Positions 421 to 56,399 of a DNA stretch of 64,000 bases are shown piece after piece; within the stretch, counting starts at the first letter, position 1, and each line of letters begins with the position of its first letter. Source of the DNA: Gordionus sp. m RMFG-2023 (taxonomy: Eukaryota > Nematomorpha > Gordioida > Chordodea > Parachordodidae); NCBI RefSeq assembly GCF_954871325.1, contig NC_088775.1:44307561-44371560 (forward strand), in the 5' to 3' direction. A program made the translations under genes and the position numbers. The notes under the pieces were generated by a model. The model made no database searches, had not been told where the DNA came from, and saw only the letters and a list, made by a program, of their open reading frames with translations.

Positions 421-1809
421 GCTAAAACATATTTTCCTTCGCGAAAATAAAATTGTTAAATATTTACTGGCAAATAATGTATGTGTTAAATATTTAATAG
501 CAAATAATGTATGACATAATAATTTGTATTAGATAAAAACTATTATACAATAGTTTAGATTATAAATGGGGCTAACTGATTTTCCCGTGTATCCAGCGTG
601 CCTCGGTTTCCCCTAATTATATATAATAAGATAATAAGGGCTCATTTATAAATATTCATTCTTCTCTCTTTAATTTCAATTTGCTTCACATAACAATATA
701 AATTACATGTTATTAATTAAGTTCAAACATGCCTGAAAGGAAGGAAATATACTGTATATATAATCCAAATTATAGAGACTATGTAGAAATATCTGTTGAC
801 GATAATTATCATAAAAAAATATTTATTAACTTATTTTATGGATCTTAAAGGAAAATAATTTTTTATTTAAGAATAATTTTCTACTTATTTTTAACATAAT
901 GTATTGGCCATTGCTCCAAATAATAAAATAAGGCATATACATTTTGCCCAATGAATCCGCTATCAATAAGTATTGAAGCAATAAATTTCTAAATTCTAAG
1001 GTAGTGAAGATATTAGAACATTTAAGGAGTAAATTTTTTTTTATTGGGATATTAATTTTTCGTCCAGGATTTCTTATTATATTTTTAGTAAACGAAACAT
1101 TATCGGGAAATGATATTGGTAAACATTCACCAAATCTCTATATTGCATATAATCATAGATATTATTTCCACATAAAACTTTCTGCTATCCCTTTAAATGT
1201 AATTTAAAAAGGTTAAACATTCTCAAAACTCATATATTCATGCCAAACACTATATTATAATAATGCATTCATTGTAAATGAGGGGGTTTTAATTAAATTC
1301 ATGTTCTATAAATAACTCTTTTACGATCACAATATTTTGATAGTCGTTGAGCATTAATAATTTAGGTCATTCTTCTAAAAATATATGAAGAAGTACCATT
1401 ATAATAAAAAAAGTGGATGGAATTAATAATGTGAGATTATCACCTTCGAAAGTGTAGGTTTTTTAGGGGGTAGGTATAGGTTAGTTAGGGTGGTTTGCAT
1501 CCAGTGAAAACCCATAGCGTTGGCCTAAGCACTAAATCATGTCGTAATATTTATGACTAAGCCTTTTAACACTTGGGGGATGGATTCTTATATAAGTTTA
1601 AAATTGGAATTCACGAGTATAGATTTATTTTTAAAATTTTTCCAAAAGCTTAATTATCTTCTCGAACATAGTTTATTTAAAATCATAATAAATTTCAACA
1701 TCTATAATATATATAAAAGCCTTATCACAAAAATAGCGTTACGCTCTCATGTCCCACTTTTCATGTCACACTTTATAATATATATTCAAAAAATCGTTAA
1801 TTTTGAAAA
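421..1809. other. no gene seen, AT-rich
   Basis: Short open frames occur (for example 1004-1207 and 1553-1912), but they start at non-ATG codons or run through repeat sequence and resemble no protein family I know. I see nothing functional here. Confidence 0.5.
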
Positions 1810-1890
1810 GTGCCTATGGCTCAATTGGGCAAGAACTTCGCTTACAAATCTAGATGGATTATTGGACTTAGGTTCGAATCCCGGCAAATG
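1810..1890 (+). repeat. tRNA-derived SINE-like head
   Basis: An A-box-like TGGCTCAATTGG lies at 1817-1828 and a perfect B box GGTTCGAATCC at 1871-1881, spaced as in a tRNA gene. The flanking strands do not pair into an acceptor stem, so this is a tRNA-derived unit rather than a working tRNA gene. It shares the block GCAAGARCTTCGCTTA and the CGAATCCCGG context with the tRNA-like parts of the elements at 50258-50657 and 58156-58542, so the three are related. A T-rich tail follows. Confidence 0.6.
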
Positions 1891-2159
1891 GTTTTTTTTC
1901 TTAATCTGGTAAAATATTTTTTTTTCTTAATCTGACAAAATTAATCAAAGAGAACGATTCAAAGTGTAGTGTAGCTAGTTTAAAATTCAAACTATTAAAT
2001 AGTTATTCTGATATTTTTAAATTTTTTACATTCTTTTTAAAAATCACTACATAATCTTATTAAACAAACCAAACCAAACTGAACTTTAAAATAATAAATA
2101 TTCATACACAATTACTGAACTGAAAAATAATAAATATTCATACACAATTATACATAACT

Positions 2160-3151
2160 AGCTGATTTACAATTTTTATATATAATATATATTTAACCGC
2201 TCCTTTGATTTTCATTTTTTTAGAAGGTACACGAAACAAAATTTTCATTTTTTTAAAATACACGAAAAGGTTATAGGCTATGGTAAATTTTTTGATTTAA
2301 TTACTATTTTATTATATTTTTAGATTCCTGCACAAGATACTTTTCAACAAAAAGATGCTGAAAATCAACAATCAAATTGTAGTACTGAAAATCAATAACA
2401 GTAAATTTTTATAATTTTTACATATAACAGTTCCTTAGATTTTTCATGAAGGCTAAAATAATATACAAAAATTAGTTATTAAATAGTTTGAATATTATCT
2501 TATAAACACTGGCAATAAAACAGACCTTTATCAGCTAAAATTAAAAAATAATACCTATTTTGAATTTTAAATTATAAAAACTAAAAAGCTATGCATAACT
2601 TATTTTTGTAAATTATCTTTTTTAGCACCCATAGAAAAAAAATCAAAGGAACTGTTGTATGTTATAATAATGATTGTCTAAATTTGAAAGTTAATCTTTT
2701 AAAAAATCTAGATATTGTAAAGAAGGCAATAAAACAGACCTTCATGGCAGCTAAAATTAAAAAATAATACCTATTTTGAATTTTAAATTATAAACACTAA
2801 AAGCTATGCATAACTTTTGTAAATTATCATTTTTAGCACCCATAGAAGAAATTTCCAAGGAGCTAATGTATGTTATAATAATTATCTAAATTTAAAAGTT
2901 AATCTTTTAAAAAATCTAGATAAATATATATCTATTAAATAGTTTGAATTTTAACTTATATACACCAAAAAGTTTTGCATATTAATTTTGTAAATTATCA
3001 TTATTAGCCCCCATAGAAGAAAAATCCATGAAAATGTTGTATGTTATAATAATGATTGTCTAAAAAAAATAAGTTATGCATAACTTTTTAGTGTTATAAG
3101 TTAAAATTCAAACTATTAAAAGTATTCTTATATTTTTAAATTTTAGCCATG
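2160..3151. repeat. AT-rich repeat cluster, left part
   Basis: Units of about 215-240 bp recur at roughly 2508-2723 and 2727-2930, with a partial third to 3060. Shared phrases include GGCAATAAAACAGACCTT, TAGCACCCATAGAA and TGTATGTTATAATAATGA. Part of the same sequence reappears in inverse orientation after the hAT insertion (5012-5400), so the cluster is a mixture of direct and inverted copies. The hAT at 3160-5003 was inserted into it. Confidence 0.5.
2323..2399 (+). other. exon-like segment
   Basis: A T-rich tract ending TTTTTAG is followed by an open frame that includes DAENQQSNCSTENQ and then by AACA|GTAAAT, which looks like a splice donor. STENQ also occurs in the exon-like segments at 5396-5533 and 5804-5915. 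It may be a decayed exon of the same unit; a stop lies in the chosen frame just before the donor. The function is unknown. Confidence 0.3.
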
Positions 3152-3159
3152 AAGGTCCT

Positions 3160-5003
3160 CAGGCGCGTACGCAGGAATTTGGTCTGGGGGGGGGGGGGAT
3201 AATAAATTTTTTTAAGAAATAATATTTTTAATTAAAAATACTAAGCATAAATTTATTAGGATTAAAAACTTTTCTAATACACAATTTTAAATTAATGTGA
3301 ATTAAAAAAATTATATATATAAACCGGCATTTAAATATGAATCATAAAATATAAAGTGAATATAACCTACGATATGAATCACTTATGACCCAAAATTGAA
3401 ATTTGAATTTTTTGAGCTTTTAAAATATATAAAGTATAAAAAATTTAAATGTTGTAAATATAAATTAATACACAAAAAGTTTCTTAGGAATAATTGTATT
3501 TTGTATGTTTTGAGCTAATTTTTCAATTATCAATCCTTGCTTGGCGTTAAATGTCTATGAATATTCAAAAGATCCAAATCATTCAATCTACTTTCAGATG
3601 TTGTAATTCATAGGTATGTTTTTCACAGACTTGCAGGCCCGGCACCCGAGCCGGACCGTATTTTAATTTTTTTAAATATACCCGGGCCGGGCTCGTAATT
3701 TTTTTTTTAAAAACACCCGGGCTGGGCCTGAAAATTTTTTAAGAAAATATATCCGAGCCGAGTTGTATATTTTAAAACCAAATATTTGAAATCGCCATTA
3801 TTAGCTATAAATATCAAAAATAAATATAATTTATTTTAAAAAATTCGGGCTGGGCCAGCCGGGCCGGGCCTGAAAATTTTTTTAAAAAAAACCCGGGCCG
3901 GAAAAAATTTTTAAAAAAAATCTGGGCCTGGTCCTGCAAATGGTACCTCTGCAAGGCTCTGTTATTCTTCTTAAAAAAGTGAATGTTCTCTCATTAGTTT
4001 ACTAAAGAGCTGCTAATATATATATAACCATTTTAATAATTGGGAGTATAATCTAAAATGTGTTTGAGATAAAAAGCATCCATAGCATTTTTTGGGACTG
4101 TATCAACCATAGTTAATCTTTTAATCATAGTTATTCAGCTAATAAGGCATCATAAGATATTTTAACATCTTCATGATAAAAATATAACAAATATTTATAT
4201 TTTTTTTCTATCACCATATAATGTTTTATAATACTCTTCTACTGATCCTATATTAATGTTTTGATGATGAGCTTGCTTGCTGCAAGTCGAGGGGGACAAA
4301 TATTTAACACGTATAGCTCTGCTTTTGACTCAACAATAACATATAAAATATGAAATTCTTCAACAACACTAGCTCTATTTCCTTGAGTTCTAATAAAATG
4401 CTCTCCGCTATTCTCATCTTCTTAATCAAGTCAATGTTATGTTTTTGAAAAGTATTATATAAAATAGTTGTATAATTAAATAATACATTCTAATGAGAAA
4501 AAAAATTTGGAATAAGTATTGAATCCAATAATTTTCTTGCTTCTGAAAAAATATTTCTTTCAAGCCATTGTGATATTTCAGTAATAGCATTAATAATCAG
4601 CTCTTCTAACTCCAAAATAGCTGTTACTGTGGCGGAGACTCGATCTCGTTGGACAAGCTTGCAATTTTTTTCTCCCTGTTGGACAAGGAGTTTCAGAGAT
4701 AATTATTATTTTATTAGAAATTTAGATAAATATTACGCCACTAAAATTTGAAAATAATAGGTAAATTACGCCAAGGAAAACTTGAAATCGAAATTGATTG
4801 ATAAAATAACTTAGTAGATGAATGTGATAAATAAATGTAATTAAATATATATATATATATGTATGTATGAGATAAGAATAAATATTAACAAATATAAATT
4901 AATATTAACAATAATATTTTTGAAAAATATAATCCGGCATCTGCATTTTTTGGCTTTGGGGGGATTTGTCCCCCTGCCCCCCCCCCCGCTGCGTACGCGC
5001 CTG
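3160..5003 (-). mobile_element. hAT transposon (TSD AAGGTCCT)
   Basis: The ends are inverted copies of CAGGCGCGTACGCAG, followed by runs of G, and the element is bracketed by perfect 8-bp duplications AAGGTCCT (3152-3159 and 5004-5011). Minus-strand translation gives the hAT dimerisation motif NERTFTFLRR near 3970-4010 and, on the far side of a MITE insertion, SESRLNDLDLLNIHR near 3545-3600. Upstream blocks such as WLERNIFSEARKLLDS are also coding-like. The transposase is broken by stops and by the MITE at 3624-3961. It belongs with the ZMYM/THAP-type hAT transposases on motif grounds. Confidence 0.85.
3624..3961. mobile_element. GC-rich hAT MITE (CAGAGACCTGCAGG family)
   Basis: It starts CACAGACTTGCAGG and ends CAAGGCTCTG, and is filled with CCCGGGCCGGGC-type motifs separated by A/T runs. 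Related copies lie at 53488-53836 and 60604-60869, with a fragment near 15290-15415. The flanking 8-mers match only loosely (about 5 of 8). The insertion sits inside the dimerisation-motif region of the hAT at 3160-5003, so it is younger than that element. Confidence 0.6.
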
Positions 5004-5011
5004 AAGGTCCT

Positions 5012-5395
5012 GTTTTATTGCATGCTTTACAATATCTAGATTTTTTTAAAGATTTACTTTCATATTTAGACATCTTTATTATAACATACAACAGTTCCTT
5101 GGATTTTTCTTCTATAGGGGCTAAAAATGATCATTTATAAAAATAAGTTATGAATAGCTTTTAAGTGTATATAAGTTAAAATTTTACTATTAAATAGATA
5201 TTCATATATTTTTAAATTTTAGCTGAGGTACAGTAAATTTTTGTCTCAAATTTAGACATAACTGATCATTTTTATAACACATACAACTCCTTGGATTTTC
5301 TTCTATAGGTGCTAAAAATGATATAACATTTTAGTGTATATATGTTAAAATTCAAACTATTTAATAGGTATATTTAAATTTTAATAACATATCAG
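5012..5395. repeat. AT-rich repeat cluster, right part
   Basis: This continues the cluster interrupted by the hAT. Phrases such as TAACATACAACAGTTCCTTG and TTCTATAGGGGCTAAAAA are the reverse complement of phrases found at 2600-3050. No coding capacity is seen. Confidence 0.45.
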
Positions 5396-5533
5396 CATAA
5401 GGAAAAAGCCAGACAGAGACAGGAACTTTGTCAAAGCAAAAAAAGACAAGTGCAAAGTCTTATTGCATCAATATCAAAGTGTAGTAGTACTGAAAATCAA
5501 GATCAATGTAATATTGCTTCAACATCCTTAACA
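5396..5533 (+). other. exon-like segment, 46 codons
   Basis: The acceptor-like AACATATCAG ends at 5395 and the donor-like ACA|GTAAAT begins at 5534. Between them is exactly 138 nt with one fully open phase-0 frame. It begins HKEKARQRQELCQSKKRQ and ends STENQDQCNIASTSLT: charged and Gln-rich, then Ser/Thr/Asn-rich. This could be a real exon, or an exon captured by a repeat. A second, less intact copy is at 5804-5915, and the tandem array of similar exon-like units begins 500 bp downstream. I recognise no family. Confidence 0.4.
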
Positions 5534-5803
5534 GTAAATTTTATTATCTCTTTATTTTTTATTAATTAAACTAGTTACAAGTCTGTCCTGATAAAAAAAA
5601 AAGACCTAAATAAATTTTTTATTTTCTGTTCTATTGTCTTCTCTACATTTTACATAATAAATACATATATACTAAATATTTTTTTTACCATAAAACCATT
5701 GCCATCTTATACATCAACATATATATACTAGAACTAATTGATATATTATAGATATTCTTACTATTCAATAGGTATATATTTTTAAATTTTAATAACATAT
5801 CAG

Positions 5804-5915
5804 CCCCAGAAGAAAGTCAAACGGAGAAAGAACGAAGCAAGAAAAGACAAGAGCAAAGTCTTGTAGTAGTACTGAAAATCAAGATCAGTGTAATATTGCT
5901 TCAACATCCTTAACA
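5804..5915 (+). other. second, decayed copy of exon-like segment
   Basis: The acceptor AACATATCAG and donor ACA|GTAAAT are the same as at 5396-5533. The 3' half again encodes STENQDQCNIASTSLT. The 5' half reads EESQTEKERSKKRQEQSL, but in a different frame, so an internal deletion has shifted the phase relative to the 5396 copy. Confidence 0.35.
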
Positions 5916-6029
5916 GTAAATTTTAACTCTTTATTTTTTATTATATAAATTGTTTACAAGTCTGTCCTGATAAAAAAAAACAAGATAATTCTGATTTTGA
6001 TTATATTTTTAAATGCTTATTAATTATTT

Positions 6030-9000
6030 TCTGAAAAACACCCAAAATACCACATCGAGCAAAACCATCAAAGACATGATACCATCACCAGTAAATTCTA
6101 TTTTGCACTTTCAATTTACACGTTTTATTTCAGGTTATTTACGGCAAACTATGAGCAAGGAAATCACATCATCATTAAAATACCACATCGAGCAAAATCA
6201 ACAAAGACACGATACCATCATCAGTAAATTCTATTTTATACTTTCAATTTACAAGCTTTATTTCAGGTTATTTACGGAAAAATACGAGCAAGGAAATCAC
6301 ACTATCAAAATACCACATCGGGAAAAACCATAAAAGACATGACCATCATCATCAGTAAATTCTATTTTGCACTTTCAATTTACACGCTTTATTTCAGGTT
6401 ATTTATGGCAAACTACGAGCAAGAAAATCACACTATCAAAATACCACATTGGGAAAAACCATCAAAGACATGACCATCATCATCAGTAAATTCTATTTTG
6501 TACTTTCAATTTACACGCTTTATTTCAGGTTATTTACGGCAAACTACGTGCAAGGATATCACATCATCAAAATACCACATCGAGCAAAACCATCAAAGAC
6601 ACGATACCATCATCTGTAAATTCTATTTTGTACTTTCAACTTACATGCTTTATTTCAGGTTATTTACGGCAAACTACGAGCAAGGAAATTGCATCATCAT
6701 CAAAATACCATATCGAGCAAAACCATTAAAGGCACGACCGTCATCATCAGTAAATTGTAAATTCTATTTTGCACTTTTAATTTACACGCTTTATTTCAGG
6801 TTATTTATGGCAAACTACGAGCAAGAAAATCACACTATCAAAATACCACATCGGGAAAAACCATCAAAGACATGACCATCATCATCAGTAAATTCTATTT
6901 TGCACTTTCAATTTACACGCTTTATTTCAGGTTATTTACGGCAAACTACGAGCAAGAAAATCACACTATCAAAATACCACATCGGGAAAAACCATCAAAG
7001 ACATGACCATCATCATCAGTAAATTCTATTTTGCACTTTTAATTTACACGCTTTATTTCAGGTTATTTATGGCAAACTACGAGCAAGAAAATCACACTAT
7101 CAAAATACCACATCGGGAAAAACCATCAAAGACATGACCATCATCATCAGTAAATTCTATTTTGCACTTTTAATTTACACGCTTTATTTCAGGTTATTTA
7201 CGGCAAACTACGAGCCAGAAAATCACACTATCAAAATACCACATCGGAAAAAACCATCAAAGACATGACCATCATCATCAGTAAATTCTATTTTGCACTT
7301 TTAATTTACACGCTTTATTTCAGGTTATTTATGGCAAACTACGAGCAAGAAAATCACACTATCAAAATACCACATCGGGAAAAACCATCAAAGACATGAC
7401 CATCATCATCAGTAAATTCTATTTTGCACTTTGAATTTACAAGCTTTATTTCAGGTTATTTACGGATAACTACGAGCAAGGAAATCACATCATCAAAATA
7501 CCACATCGAGCAAAACTATCAAAGACACCATAATCATCTGTAAATTCTATTTTGTACTTTCAATTTACACGCTTTATTTCAATTTATTTACGGAAAACTA
7601 CGAGCAAGGAAATCACATCATCAGAATACCACATCGAGCAAAACCATCAAAGACACGATACCATCATCTGTAAATTCTATTTTGTACTTTCAATTAACAT
7701 GCTTTATTTCAGGTTATTTACGGCAAACTACGTGCAAGGATATCACATCATCAAAATACCACATCGAGCAAAACCATCAAAGACACGATACCATCATCTG
7801 TAAATTCTATTTTGTACTTTCAACTTACATGCTTTATTTCAGGTTATTTACGGCAAACTACGAGCAAAGAAACCACATCATCATCAAAATAATCGAGCAA
7901 AACCATTAAAGACACGACCGTCATCATCAGTAAATTCTATTTTGCACTTTGAATTTACACGCTTTATTTCAGGTTATTTACGGATAACTACGAGCAAGGA
8001 AATCACATCATCAAAATACCATATCGAGCAAAACCATCAAAGACACGATACCATCATCTGTAAATTCTATTTTGTACTTTCAATTTACACGCTTGATTTT
8101 ATGTTATTTACGGCAAACTACGAGCAAGGAAATCACATCATCAAAATACCACATCGAGCAAAACCATCAAAGACACCATAATCATCTGTAAATTCTATTT
8201 TGTACTTTCAATTTACACACTTTATTTCAGGTTATTTACGGAAAACTACGAGCAAGGAAATCACATCATCAAAATACCACATCGAGCAAAACCATCAAGA
8301 CACGATACCATCATCAGTAAATTCTATTTTGTACTTTCAATTTACACGCTTTATTTCAGGTTATTTACGGCAAACTACGAGCAAGGAAATCACATCATCA
8401 AAATACCACATCGAGCAAAACCATCAAAGACACGATACCATCATCTGTAAATTCTATTTTGTACTTTCAATTTACACGCTTTATTTCAGGTTATTTACGG
8501 CAAACTACGAGCAAGGAAATCACACCATCAAAATACTACATCGAGCAAAACCAACAAAGACACGATACCATCATCTGTAAATTCTATTTTGTACTTTCAA
8601 TTTACACGCTTTATTTTAGGTTATTTACGGCAAACTACGAGCAAGGAAATCACATCATCATCAAAATACCATATCGAGCAAAACCATTAAAGACACGACC
8701 GTCATCATCAGTAAATTCTATTTTGCACTTATAATTTACACGCTTTATTTCAAGTTATTTACGGCAAACTACGAGCAAGGAAATCACATCATCAAAATAC
8801 CACATCGAGCAAAACCATCAAAGACACGATACCATCATCAATAAATTCTATTTTGTACTTTCAATTTACACGCTTTATTTCAGGTTATTTACGGCAAACT
8901 ACGAGCAAGGAAATCACATAATCAAAATACCACATCGAGCAAAACCATCAAAGACACGATACCATCATCTGTAAATCCTATTTTGTACTTTCAATTTACA

Positions 9001-10070
9001 CGCTTTATTTCAGGTTATTTACGGCAAACTACGAGCAAGGAAATCACACCATCAAAATACTACATCGAGCAAAACCAACAAAGACACGATACCATCATCT
9101 GTAAATTCTATTTTGTACTTTCAATTTACACGCTTTATTTCAGGTTATTTACGGCAAACTACGAGCAAGGAAATCACACCATCAAAATACTACATCGAGC
9201 AAAACCAACAAAGACACGATACCATCATCTGTAAATTCTATTTTGTACTTTCAATTTACACGCTTTATTTCAGGTTATTTACGGCAAACTACGAGCAAGG
9301 AAATCACACCATCAAAATACTACATCGAGCAAAACCAACAAAGACACGATACCATCATCTGTAAATTCTATTTTGTACTTTCAATTTACACGCTTTATTT
9401 CAGGTTATTTACGGCAAACTACGAGCAAGGAAATCACATCATCATCAAAATACCATATCGAGCAAAACCATTAAAGACACGACCGTCATCATCAGTAAAT
9501 TCTATTTTGCACTTACAATTTACACGCTTTATTTCAGGTTATTTACGGCAAACTACGAGCAAGGAAATCACATCATCAAAATACCACATCGAGCAAAACC
9601 ATCAAAGACACGATACCATCATCTGTAAATTCTATTTTGTACTTTCAATTTACACGCTTTATTTCAGGTTATTTACGGCAAACTACGAGCAAGGAAATCA
9701 CACCATCAAAATACCACATCGAGAAAAACCATAAAAGACACGACCATCATCATCAGTAAATTCTATTTTGTACTTTCAATTTACACGCTTTATTTCAAGT
9801 TATTTACGGCAAACTACGAGCAAGGAAATCACATCATCATCAAAATACCATATCGAGCTGAACCATTAAAGATATACGACCGTCATCATCAGTAAATTCT
9901 ATTTTGCACTTACAATTTACACGCTTTATTTCAGGTTATTTACGGCAAACTACGAGCAAGGAAATTACATCATCAAAATACCACATCGAGCAAAACCATC
10001 AAAGACACGATACCATCATCAATAAATTCTATTTTTAACTTTCAATTTACAGGCTTTATTTCAGGTTATT
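6030..10070 (+). repeat. 130-bp tandem array of exon-like units, about 31 copies
   Basis: About 31 head-to-tail units with a mean period near 131 bp. Each runs from TTTATTTCAG through GTTATTTACGGCAAACTACG and CACATCGAGCAAAACC to CATCATCA|GTAAATTC, then a short T-rich stretch back to the next TTTATTTCAG. Each unit therefore looks like a mini-exon of 87-91 nt between a splice acceptor and donor, with an intron-like spacer of about 43 nt. The phase following the upstream exon-like units reads VIYGKLRARKSHHQNTT and is open in most copies; the other two frames are often open too. Differences between unit types fall mainly at third positions of that frame (TAC/TAT, AGG/AGA, CAT/CAC, CGA/CGT). Some copies carry a stop (GGATAA) or a lost donor (CAATAAAT). 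The three units near 9005-9390 are essentially identical. It could be a repetitive-protein gene, or a satellite that amplified an exon. Confidence 0.75.
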
Positions 10071-10574
10071 AGTTTTAAATAGAAGACAACATACGGTGAT
10101 ATACCCGATGCTAATTCTTAAAAATATTAGATTCCTCTCAATTTTTAAAATATCTTAAATCTCCTTTTTTTGTAAAATTTTTGTTATTATAATTTACTAT
10201 ATTATATTTTTTTAATATGGTTACAAATGCTTATTTGTTGGAATCCGATAATTGTCAAGCCTTGAGGTATATACAATTATTATATTTTCTTATAATTCAT
10301 ATCTTTGTCTCTTTTTTTCTATTTCTTCATTCTTTTTTTTATCTCTTTGCTCCCCTAAAATCCATCTCCTACCTTCAAGCGGTGGGGAGTGAACAGCAAT
10401 GCTGACTAACAGGAGCTCTGGTGGAAAATGTTAGTATTTGGGGTGTTAATAAGAAACATTTTTCCATGTAAAAACTTAATTATTGAATAATCATAAAATA
10501 TAAAAATTTCTGATTCGTTCTTCAATAAAGGTAAAATTTATTATTCATTCATCTTTGAAAAGAAGAAATTTCTG

Positions 10575-10607
10575 ATTCCCCGTCATTCTTAACGGGTTAT
10601 CAACTAG
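10575..10607 (+). mobile_element. Helitron-type 3' end
   Basis: A short hairpin (CCCGT, 8-nt loop, ACGGG) is followed by TTATCAA and then CTAG before a T at 10608. This is the classical Helitron 3' terminus, a hairpin just upstream of CTRR. The same end occurs at 48716-48749. I found no matching 5' end or RepHel frame, so its extent is unknown; it may extend back over part of the 130-bp array. Confidence 0.6.
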
Positions 10608-23600: not shown

Positions 23601-24290
23601 CTTTCAAATTTTCCTGTTTATTTTTCTCACACTTATCCTGATTATGCCAAAATTTCCACAAATTTCACACACAACCGTATTTTTTTGTTTTTCATTTAAT
23701 AACTTGTATACCGGAACGTAACACTCTTTTGCATTATGTCCTTTGTTTCCACATCTTTTACAAACTACTGGTAACATTCTTCGATTCATCTCTTCAATAC
23801 ATTCTTTTCTTATATGACCATGTTTCCAACAATTATAACATGCTCTATTCTGCTCCGTCCTATTCCATTGATTCCTTCTATATTCCATTCTATATCCATC
23901 TCCCCCTGTATTATTTCCATAATTTCGCTTTATTCCTTTTCTTCATTTTTCTCCTCCAATTCTTTTATCTTTATTTTCATTTCTGTCATTTCTACTCTCA
24001 ATATTTCCTTTTCCTTTTTTTCTAACTCAATTTTATCCAATTTTTCTTTCTTTTTCCTTTCCAATTCTTCTATATCTTTTCTTTCTTGTTCCCATTCTCT
24101 CATTTATTTTTTCAATTTCAATCTCTTTTTTTATATTTTCTATATCTATATCATCCTTTTCTTTTTCAGAATCTCTAATGATCTCTGGTTTTTAACATAC
24201 TATTCCATTTTTTCATCATTTTTCGTCATATATATTTCTTTACATAAGTTTCTATTTCTACTTGCTTAAGCATTCTTATTTATATCTTTA
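23600..24290 (-). mobile_element. Gag-like fossil of an LTR-type element
   Basis: The minus strand encodes a charged, helical stretch followed by two CCHC zinc knuckles (CYNCWKHGHIRKEC and CKRCGNKGHNAKEC) and a CxxC. This is the layout of a retroelement Gag nucleocapsid region. It is broken, appears as a fragment only, and no LTRs or pol region were identified nearby. Family within the LTR elements is not assigned. It looks old. Confidence 0.5.
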
Positions 24291-48715: not shown

Positions 48716-48749
48716 CATTCCCCGTCATTTTTGACGGGCTATCTACTAG
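48716..48749 (+). mobile_element. Helitron-type 3' end
   Basis: The hairpin CCCGT-ATTTTTG loop-ACGGG, spacer CTATCTA and terminal CTAG followed by T match the end at 10575-10607. The upstream AGAAGAAAATTTTCATTCCC also matches, so the two are copies of one family. Confidence 0.6.
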
Positions 48750-53836: not shown

Positions 53837-56399
53837 AAATTAGTGCCGAAAGTTTTTAAAAAGTAATGTTTCTGGCCAGCAGCCCAGAGGGCCTAATATC
53901 ATATTATCTAGCTGTCATAAGTTTTTAAAACGTTTTTAATAAGCTTTGGCTTACAATGATTAAATTTAGAATATTTAAAACAAAAAAATATTGCCTTTTT
54001 TCCTAATAATAAATTTCAGTATTGTAAACAAAACGATTGCCTAAATATATTTAAATATTGTTTATTTTCATTAAATAAAATCGCAAAAAAAAATTTTTTG
54101 TTTATTTATTTAAAAAAATATGGGAAAATTTTTTTTGATAAAGTAAAAAATAAAATGAAGGATAAATAAAAAATTTAAAGAATAAAAATTTTTGCTAAGT
54201 ATTATTTGTCTTAAATTTTCCAATCCTCCTCCCCACACCCCCCCCCCCCCTAATTTCTCTTGTTTTCTTGTTCTTTAATATTATTTTTTAAAATTTACCA
54301 ACCCCCCTAATTTCGATTGTTCATAATTATACTTCTCTTTTTTTTTTAAATTTTGAACTTTTTTCCCCCCATTTTTCTTGTTATAATTTTATCTAACTTT
54401 TTATGAGCCATATTAAGCGAAAATAATGGGGGGAGAAATTTGTTTATAAAAGAAAATATTTCTTTACATAATTACTAAAAATAAATACTTCCGATTTTTT
54501 ATAAAATTATTATATGAATATTTCTAAATATAATATTTATGTAATGTGTTATTTGAATAAATATAATTATTTAAATGAAATTCGTTAAATCGATCACGAT
54601 TTGGCCGACCCCTTTTCAACAGGGTTTCGAACCATTAAGTATAGAGGTTCGGTTCGTTACGGTTTTTAGTTTAAAATTTTATAAAGGTTTTGTTCCATTT
54701 CGGTTTTTTTTTGAAAAAATTTAAATCGGTTCGGTTTATAATTTATAACGGTTCTTTTCGGTTTGTTCCGGTTCTTAAAATTTGATTTAAAAAAATTTAA
54801 TAATAAACCATATATATTAATATTAGAGAAAAATCTTTTTATAATTTCTTATTTAATTTAACCATGATAATCTAATAGATATTTTTATTAAACTTAGTAA
54901 ATATAAATTAGACAAATCAATTTTTTTTATTTTATATATAAATAAGATAAACACAAACATGCGCAAATACAATGAGGAATAAAATAACACATAAATATAA
55001 TGAAATTTATATTATTTATTTTTAAAAAGAGAATTAGAACGGATAACTAAAATCTTTTCTAATATTTCAGGATTTAATTTAGTTCTCTGCGCAGAGAGTA
55101 TAAACTTAAGGCTAGAAAATGCTCTTTCTACGGAACTAGCACAGTTATAGCTAACTTATAAAGTTCTGGCATACTATTCTTTACATTTTCCCAATAATTC
55201 GAAAGATTTGTATCTTTTTCTAATCTCTCTATATTATCAAATGACCGAATTATATATTCTCTTTCTATACATTTATTATAATTTTCTATGCCCTGCTGAG
55301 ATTTATTCTTATTAAGGCTTTCATGCGACTTTAATAAATCTTCAAAATCATTATCTAAGTTATCTTTCGAATGTGAACACATAGGAATAGTATCTAAAAT
55401 TTCAATATCATATACCTCTTAAACAATAATAATTTTTAAGAAAATTTTAAAAAATAACTAGTTTTTGTCACATGACTCTAAATCTAAAATAATGTGTTAA
55501 ATACTATTTTTGAGGCTATTATGTTTAGAATTAAGAAAATTAATAATGATACAATACTCATATTTTAAGAAATGCAGTTAAAATCATTGTTATCTTCTAG
55601 TTATTTTAGCATCAATAGTTCTTTTTAAAAGTAAATAAAAAAAATTCCTACAATTTATAGTGGGCTGATCTATTTTATATTTAGTTAAGTAAAATTAAAG
55701 AGTTTATCGTTCGTATGTCGTAATCATAATCAGTTTTGTCAGTCAATATTTTGCTTTGGCAATCCTGACTGAGACTCATCAGGACTACTTAATTATTTTG
55801 GATAAAAATTTTCCTGCCCCTTCTAAGCCCTATATTAGCTTACAGAGTCGAGCGAGACTCGAGAGGGAACGCTAAATCATATATATTATATACTTTCCTG
55901 GTAGATTTATAATAAAATTAAAAATAAATGGGTTTTTGTCCCGCTTCTGGACTAAACATAATTTATTTTAGAGATTTTATTACCTACAACAATATGATAG
56001 ATTATATTTTTTTTGCTATATAAGTTTTTGAGATATAAGCATTTTAATAATCTTAAAGATTATTACTAAGGGGTGACTATAAATATAATTTATTATATTA
56101 GTTTATGATTTTAAAGGAGAAAATTAATTATTTATATCAAACATCTCAGACTCCTATTTTTATTAACTTAAGATAAACTAATGATGTATGGGTTGCCCTT
56201 GCCAGGTTTATAACTGCTGCTTTCTTATTATATTTATAATATATAAATATATGCATTCTTTACCTGAATAAATTACATAAAAGGTATTTAAGTAAAATAG
56301 ATGAAGCGGCATTAAAGAACAAAAAAATCTTAGATGTTTTTTGTTTTTAATATTTTCTTAAAATGTATATTATTTAAAAAACTAAAATCTGAATATACA

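Follow-up and report, generated by a model that had tools for sequence, protein, structure and literature searches.

A 64,000-nucleotide stretch from the hairworm Gordionus (hereafter the window) holds a tandem array in which every unit seems to carry a short exon between an acceptor-like and a donor-like site. A first-pass annotation of this DNA left two readings open: a gene for a repetitive protein of variable length, or a satellite in which an exon had been multiplied along with its splice sites. We asked what the array belongs to, whether it is translated, and whether its units may be spliced. The features to which we refer, in window coordinates, are the following.

6043-10070, plus strand: tandem array of ~130-bp cassettes, each a putative exon and mini-intron; 30 complete units and a partial first one (TRF and segmentation).
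1701-10607, plus strand: non-autonomous Helitron without the Rep/helicase core; starts with TCTATAAT after an A and ends in CTAG before a T; aligned copies have unrelated flanks, and there is a 3' hairpin.
2324-2400, plus strand: remnant of a first N-terminal exon (IPAQDTFQQKD...), interrupted by an in-frame stop; 14 copies at the loci examined, that of the window being 77 nt.
3160-5003, no strand assigned: nested younger element with TIRs CAGGCGCGTACGCAG...CTGCGTACGCGCCTG and an 8-bp target duplication, AAGGTCCT (sequence read, ends checked).
5396-5533, plus strand: copy of an N-terminal Rep exon (HKEKARQRQELCQSKKRQ...) with donor AACA/GTAAAT; matches the start of the Rep frame at locus L068 and copies at other loci.
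5804-5915, plus strand: second copy of the 5396-5533 exon, internally frameshifted, with the same donor.
10071-10607, plus strand: 3' region of the Helitron, in which the AATAAA terminal exon of relatives is partly deleted.
10579-10607, plus strand: 3' terminal hairpin and CTAG end (DNA fold of 10570-10607).

TRF recovered a single head-to-tail array (period 130, 30.7 copies, 91% matches), and segmentation gave 30 complete units of 128 to 141 bp each. The acceptor AG is intact in 26 of these units and the donor GT in 28, with both sites in 25, which confirms the claim of about 31 splice-framed units. When 82 units from eight loci are pooled, the spacer between exons (GTAAATTCTATTTT...TTTATTTCAG) is 43 nt long in 69 and 38 nt in 10. 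Exon length is less uniform. Within the window it is 87 nt in 14 units, 88 nt in 8, and 85, 86, 90, 91, 93, or 98 nt in the other 8. The length of 87 nt, previously given as the usual one, does not hold for the family: across the 82 units the commonest exon has 91 nt (34 units), and this length predominates outside the window (32 of 52).

The array unit, the kilobase upstream, and the half-kilobase downstream are all dispersed repeats in the 287-Mb assembly. Aligned copies, whose flanks are mutually unrelated, have sharp borders: TCTATAATATATATAAAAGCC after an A at position 1701, and TTATCAACTAG before a T at 10607. By eye, an A precedes the TC in all 10 copies with an intact TCTATAAT at the 5' end (those that begin differently do not enter this count), and a T follows CTAG at 10 of 11 3' ends, the exception being a G at L032. 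The fold of 10570-10607 has a z-score of -3.44, a stability reached by 0 of 200 shuffles, and its hairpin has a 5-bp stem (CCCGT/ACGGG) 11 nt from the CTAG end. With TC/CTRR ends and insertion between A and T without target duplication, the element containing the array is a Helitron of Gordionus. That the array forms part of such an element had been missed. The window copy is without everything between the N-terminal exons and the array, and the loci L031, L032, L045, L046, and L048 are further deletion derivatives with other junctions. The window Helitron is a passenger, and moving it would need the enzyme of another copy.

Other repeats were found in and around these Helitrons. The element nested at 3160-5003 is presumably hAT-like, judging from its TIRs and 8-bp duplication. 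Positions 1797-1880, in the 5' region of the Helitron, resemble tRNA A-box/B-box sequence; a pol III or tRNA origin for this region was considered, but ARAGORN (bacterial setting) and Rfam found nothing there. At L022 (contig C1) and L045 (C3), the 3' CTAG of a Helitron adjoins TAATATATATAAAAGCC, a Helitron 5' end without TCTA, an arrangement that resembles insertion of one copy at the A/T within the 5' end of another. The 3' end of another Helitron, ...GTCATTTTTGACGGGCTATCTACTAG followed by T, lies at position 48749 of the window. Finally, minus-strand open frames at 23604-23942 and 55128-55418 are remnants of other transposons, with a zinc-knuckle match (E = 7.8e-5) and a weak match to a hAT dimerisation domain that is below the cut-off (E = 0.0021).

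The core that the window copy lacks can be read in relatives, which have the Rep (HUH) and PIF1-type helicase domains of autonomous Helitrons. PF14214 was found at L046 (E = 1.3e-36), PIF1 (PF05970) at L049 (E = 2e-19) and L047 (E = 2.6e-21), and Pif1_2B (PF21530) at L049 (E = 9.3e-13); the assembly as a whole has at least 151 matches to PF14214. Locus L068 has an open frame of 1059 aa that matches 5713 proteins. Among the best 120 of these, whose sources include frogs, lizards, springtails, and a pseudoscorpion, those from outside Gordionus are 46-56% identical over 87-100% of the frame. The C-terminus of the helicase is readable in five relatives: NIVYQDVLNSAPTN at both L047 and L049, NIVCNEILN at L053, HGQLYVALTRCRF at L068, and NIVYNEILNSIEI at L069, each followed by a stop. 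This stop precedes the array in all five. Its distance upstream of the first donor-like site is 58 nt at L047 and L049 (decayed copies, where the frame was followed locally to the stop), 93 nt at L053 (where that site is mutated to AT), 169 nt at L068, and 127 nt at L069. At the far end, a last unit with AATAAA closes the array in L031, L045, L046, L047, and L048; the one of L045, which was viewed whole, has an acceptor and no donor. Since the helicase stop precedes the cassettes and the AATAAA unit lies beyond them, the array of full-length relatives occupies what reads as the 3'UTR of the transposase gene. One deposited gene model runs counter to a purely untranslated array at its own locus: P0015 (LOC135926873) departs from the helicase before the stop and enters the array. 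Its C-terminus reads VALTRC and then YLQQTTSKKITTSSSKTKLH, a segment that shares 6-residue words with the array frames.

The segments upstream of the array also derive from this gene. Both 5396-5533 and 5804-5915 end in AACA/GTAAAT, and thus share the array's donor as had been claimed. In relatives, short exons upstream of Rep end in this motif, and the two segments, together with 2324-2400, are copies of them. At L068, the exon sequence HKEKARKRQALCRSKK... continues in frame into Rep (...EHYCGPLNIL...). Of the 14 copies of the first N-terminal exon, 10 have a length divisible by three (96, 102, 105, or 108 nt); the window copy is not among them. Differences in the 5396-5533 exon, counted over matches in 14 sources, fall 36/98/76 on the three codon positions, without excess at the third. 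The exon thus bears no mark of selection for coding in these copies, most of which are defective, and this speaks against regarding the derivatives as coding.

Could translation nevertheless continue from the N-terminal exons into the array exons, so that the protein would vary in length? Two of the six Gordionus proteins examined contain array exons (P0001 and P0015) and four do not. P0001, a protein of 216 aa that maps to L032 on contig C2, consists of two N-terminal and five array exons, except for residue 1 and one codon that a junction interrupts, and the exon joins of this gene model coincide exactly with the sites first proposed. P0015 ends in one array exon. In addition, 34 of the 82 units have no stop in any of the three frames, and the same holds for 130 of 5000 shuffled versions of the exon, which is T-poor. 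Against these points, exon lengths do not keep the frame: modulo 3 they leave 1 in 55 units, 0 in 23, and 2 in 4, in contrast to the first N-terminal exon of this gene, whose copies are mostly divisible by three. The stop lies ahead of the array in the five relatives described above. Distinct base changes in array exons give 22/28/25 by codon position, with no position signal, versus 222/152/514 in Rep/helicase between L068 and L069, although a frame rotating through the three phases would blur the array counts, which are not final alone. The Rep/helicase counts are weaker against the decayed copies (24/11/38 for L046, 68/54/104 for L047, and 51/42/70 for L049). The window copy is itself broken, with the stop and the frameshift in its upstream exons and a frame that, on entering the array, stops at codon 7 of the first full exon. 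Protein searches with the array peptides, which the first-pass annotation had suggested as a check, revealed no relative outside this assembly, the sole hit being P0001, which comes from such an element. The array is, on these grounds, unlikely to encode a repetitive protein, and we give very little credence to a gene for one at this locus; the stop, the lost frame, and the lack of a codon-position signal leave the proposal unsupported.

The same searches bear on the origin of the unit. As passages of PMC12628747 describe, Helitrons do capture pieces of host sequence, frequently along with tandem repeats, and this one might have acquired from a host gene an exon complete with splice sites and then amplified it. 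Yet the cassette is found at the same post-helicase place in diverged subfamilies, and the array peptides matched no host protein, only P0001. We regard such a capture as highly improbable.

If the array is untranslated, is its spacer an intron? Genuine introns of this size exist in the genome. Six introns in pieces of myosin genes measure 41, 43, 45, 49, 57, and 66 nt; the myosin reading frame stays open across each of them, and one has the donor GTAAAT; they were picked at short gaps and show existence, not frequency. Both GT and AG are present in 72 of the 82 pooled units, and the spacer has a length within the range of real introns (41-66 nt). A single splice-framed unit is only mildly unlikely by chance: when the unit was shuffled with dinucleotides preserved, 93 of 3000 sequences held an acceptor-like and donor-like pair framing 50-110 nt. 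The architecture is lifted above chance because it recurs in diverged relatives. Helitron subfamilies that have diverged and retain the same 3' end carry a cassette of donor, ~43 nt, and acceptor in one to ten or more copies. It was present in 24 of the 24 sources scanned, with 146 hits. The window's own 31 are among them, as are three units from a neighbouring element in L045, and the units of C213 are counted twice because L049 reaches beyond a single copy of a 4.8-kb repeat. L068 and L069 added 14 hits, 4 and 10 respectively, and GT and AG are intact in every one of these.

These cassettes could still be those of an ordinary satellite internal to the Helitron, whose splice-like motifs arose by chance in AT-rich sequence, were passed on from a single ancestral unit, and have never served in splicing. 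The shuffles favour this reading, and so does the conservation of the sites. Within arrays (82 units), the essential splice bases are not specially kept, with the acceptor G at 0.91 and the donor G at 0.95 versus 0.98-0.99 for most adjacent bases. Between groups of cassettes, GT and AG do not stand out, most spacer bases being conserved, including the intron interior. Several relatives have broken donors, among them the single cassettes of L053 and L008. Furthermore, no processed, intronless copy of the array was found in 292,786 bases searched, where seven matches were ordinary unspliced acceptor sites, nor was the intronless junction found assembly-wide with one pattern at up to 3 mismatches; this absence counts weakly against splicing. 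A satellite of this kind does not, however, account well for the spacer. It is 43 or 44 nt in 94 of the 108 measurable cassettes (of 131; the measurement required an A before GT, which undercounts window donors and left 14 of 30 window units unmeasured, and one acceptor in L054 was missed as well), whereas units vary from 119 to 163 bp, and the constant length is that of real introns in this genome. The 146 cassettes covering both sites form six groups that differ in interior bases, and group F (26 cassettes) is ~10 nt shorter near the usual acceptor, which it has lost, and has a different AG that gives a spacer of 44 nt. Array exons also appear in the two deposited models. We consider the unspliced satellite a weaker reading, although one to be taken seriously, and lean towards unit boundaries that are spliced in the animal, as judged from the sequence. 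The second of the original suggestions, amplification of an exon and its flanking splice sites as a satellite, is supported by the intron-length spacer, the upstream copies of Rep exons, and the two models.

The arrays differ in size among copies. There are 30 complete units in the window, 18 on C3, 12 in the stretch analysed at C1:21.45 Mb, 7 on C5, and fewer elsewhere, so that, as in other Helitrons with internal repeats, the array lies between conserved ends and its number of units varies by copy. Units are 92.5% similar within a locus versus 88.2% between loci, and for 65 of 82 units the closest relative lies within the same array, where 17 would be expected. Therefore, the arrays expanded locally. 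The N-terminal coding exon offers a parallel. It is found in tandem, with three copies in L033 and two in L037, as an in-frame exon of 96 nt with a predicted 54-nt intron between copies. Because this exon too is repeated with its intron, duplication of an exon and a mini-intron appears to be recurrent in this Helitron lineage.

Larger tandem structures also involve this sequence. In G000, the contigs C211, C212, and C213, the region C3:27616282-27621571, and L049 carry a tandem macro-repeat of 4765 bp, each period of which holds Helitron helicase sequence and five cassettes, i.e., a Helitron-derived satellite. A separate long tandem array, on the minus strand of G000:C1:5168616-5187018, has TTTATTTCAG every ~945 bp over ~18 kb.

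Our main reading, to which we assign a probability of roughly 75%, is that the array is a VNTR in the 3'UTR region of the Rep/helicase gene, in which a block of exon and mini-intron was amplified locally. We regard as firm the identity of the Helitron, the position after the stop, the recurrence of the cassette, the intron-like length of the spacer, and the loss of frame. A short exon segment of the 3'UTR and one 43-nt mini-intron would have been duplicated head to tail, and the block would then have expanded locally in different subfamilies and copies, possibly by slippage, unequal exchange, or rolling-circle replication. Because each unit has both sites and a spacer of normal intron length, a transcript could join or skip any number of units and leave the coding part untouched. 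Such splicing would let the array grow almost unopposed and may be the reason why long arrays are tolerated. A bolder version, which we find rather unlikely, is that the lineage keeps a splice-competent cassette behind its transposase gene and that tandem duplication turns it into long series of functional mini-introns. Variable splicing would then yield many related transcripts and, from deletion derivatives, fusion proteins of the P0001 type, and these products could regulate or interfere with transposition.

How does this array compare with known systems? Host genes contain arrays of tandemly duplicated exons, e.g., mutually exclusive exons, which also lie head to tail with splice sites of their own; in contrast, the Gordionus units are past the stop, out of frame, and in a mobile element. 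Tandem arrays inside Helitrons are already known. In the parts of the literature consulted, DINE-TR1 of Drosophila and Helitron satellites of Crassostrea are described with conserved ends and internal repeats of ~130-160 bp in variable number (PMC9957191, PMC12628747). Gordionus shares with such Helitrons and Helentrons the rolling-circle element, the conserved ends, and the variable-number internal array, but its repeats have splice-like frames and an intron-length spacer, and sit just past the helicase stop. Intron gain by tandem genomic duplication, where the duplicated segment carries splice sites that yield new potential introns (passages of PMC3443670), differs in that here an existing, putative mini-intron was multiplied with its exon in a transposon and no coding exon was split. 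Our search of titles, abstract openings, and passages (including PMC11408602 and PMC7376646) yielded no account of Helitron units framed by splice sites.

These results call for caution with deposited gene models of the P0001 type, which are transposon-derived. They also give a hairworm satellite a concrete origin, in the 3' end of a transposon gene. If the units are spliced, a single genome would hold many natural constructs with 1 to 30 near-identical units of mini-exon and mini-intron, which would test how the spliceosome deals with runs of equal sites, how blocks of exon and intron are duplicated, and how satellites inside transposons are tolerated.
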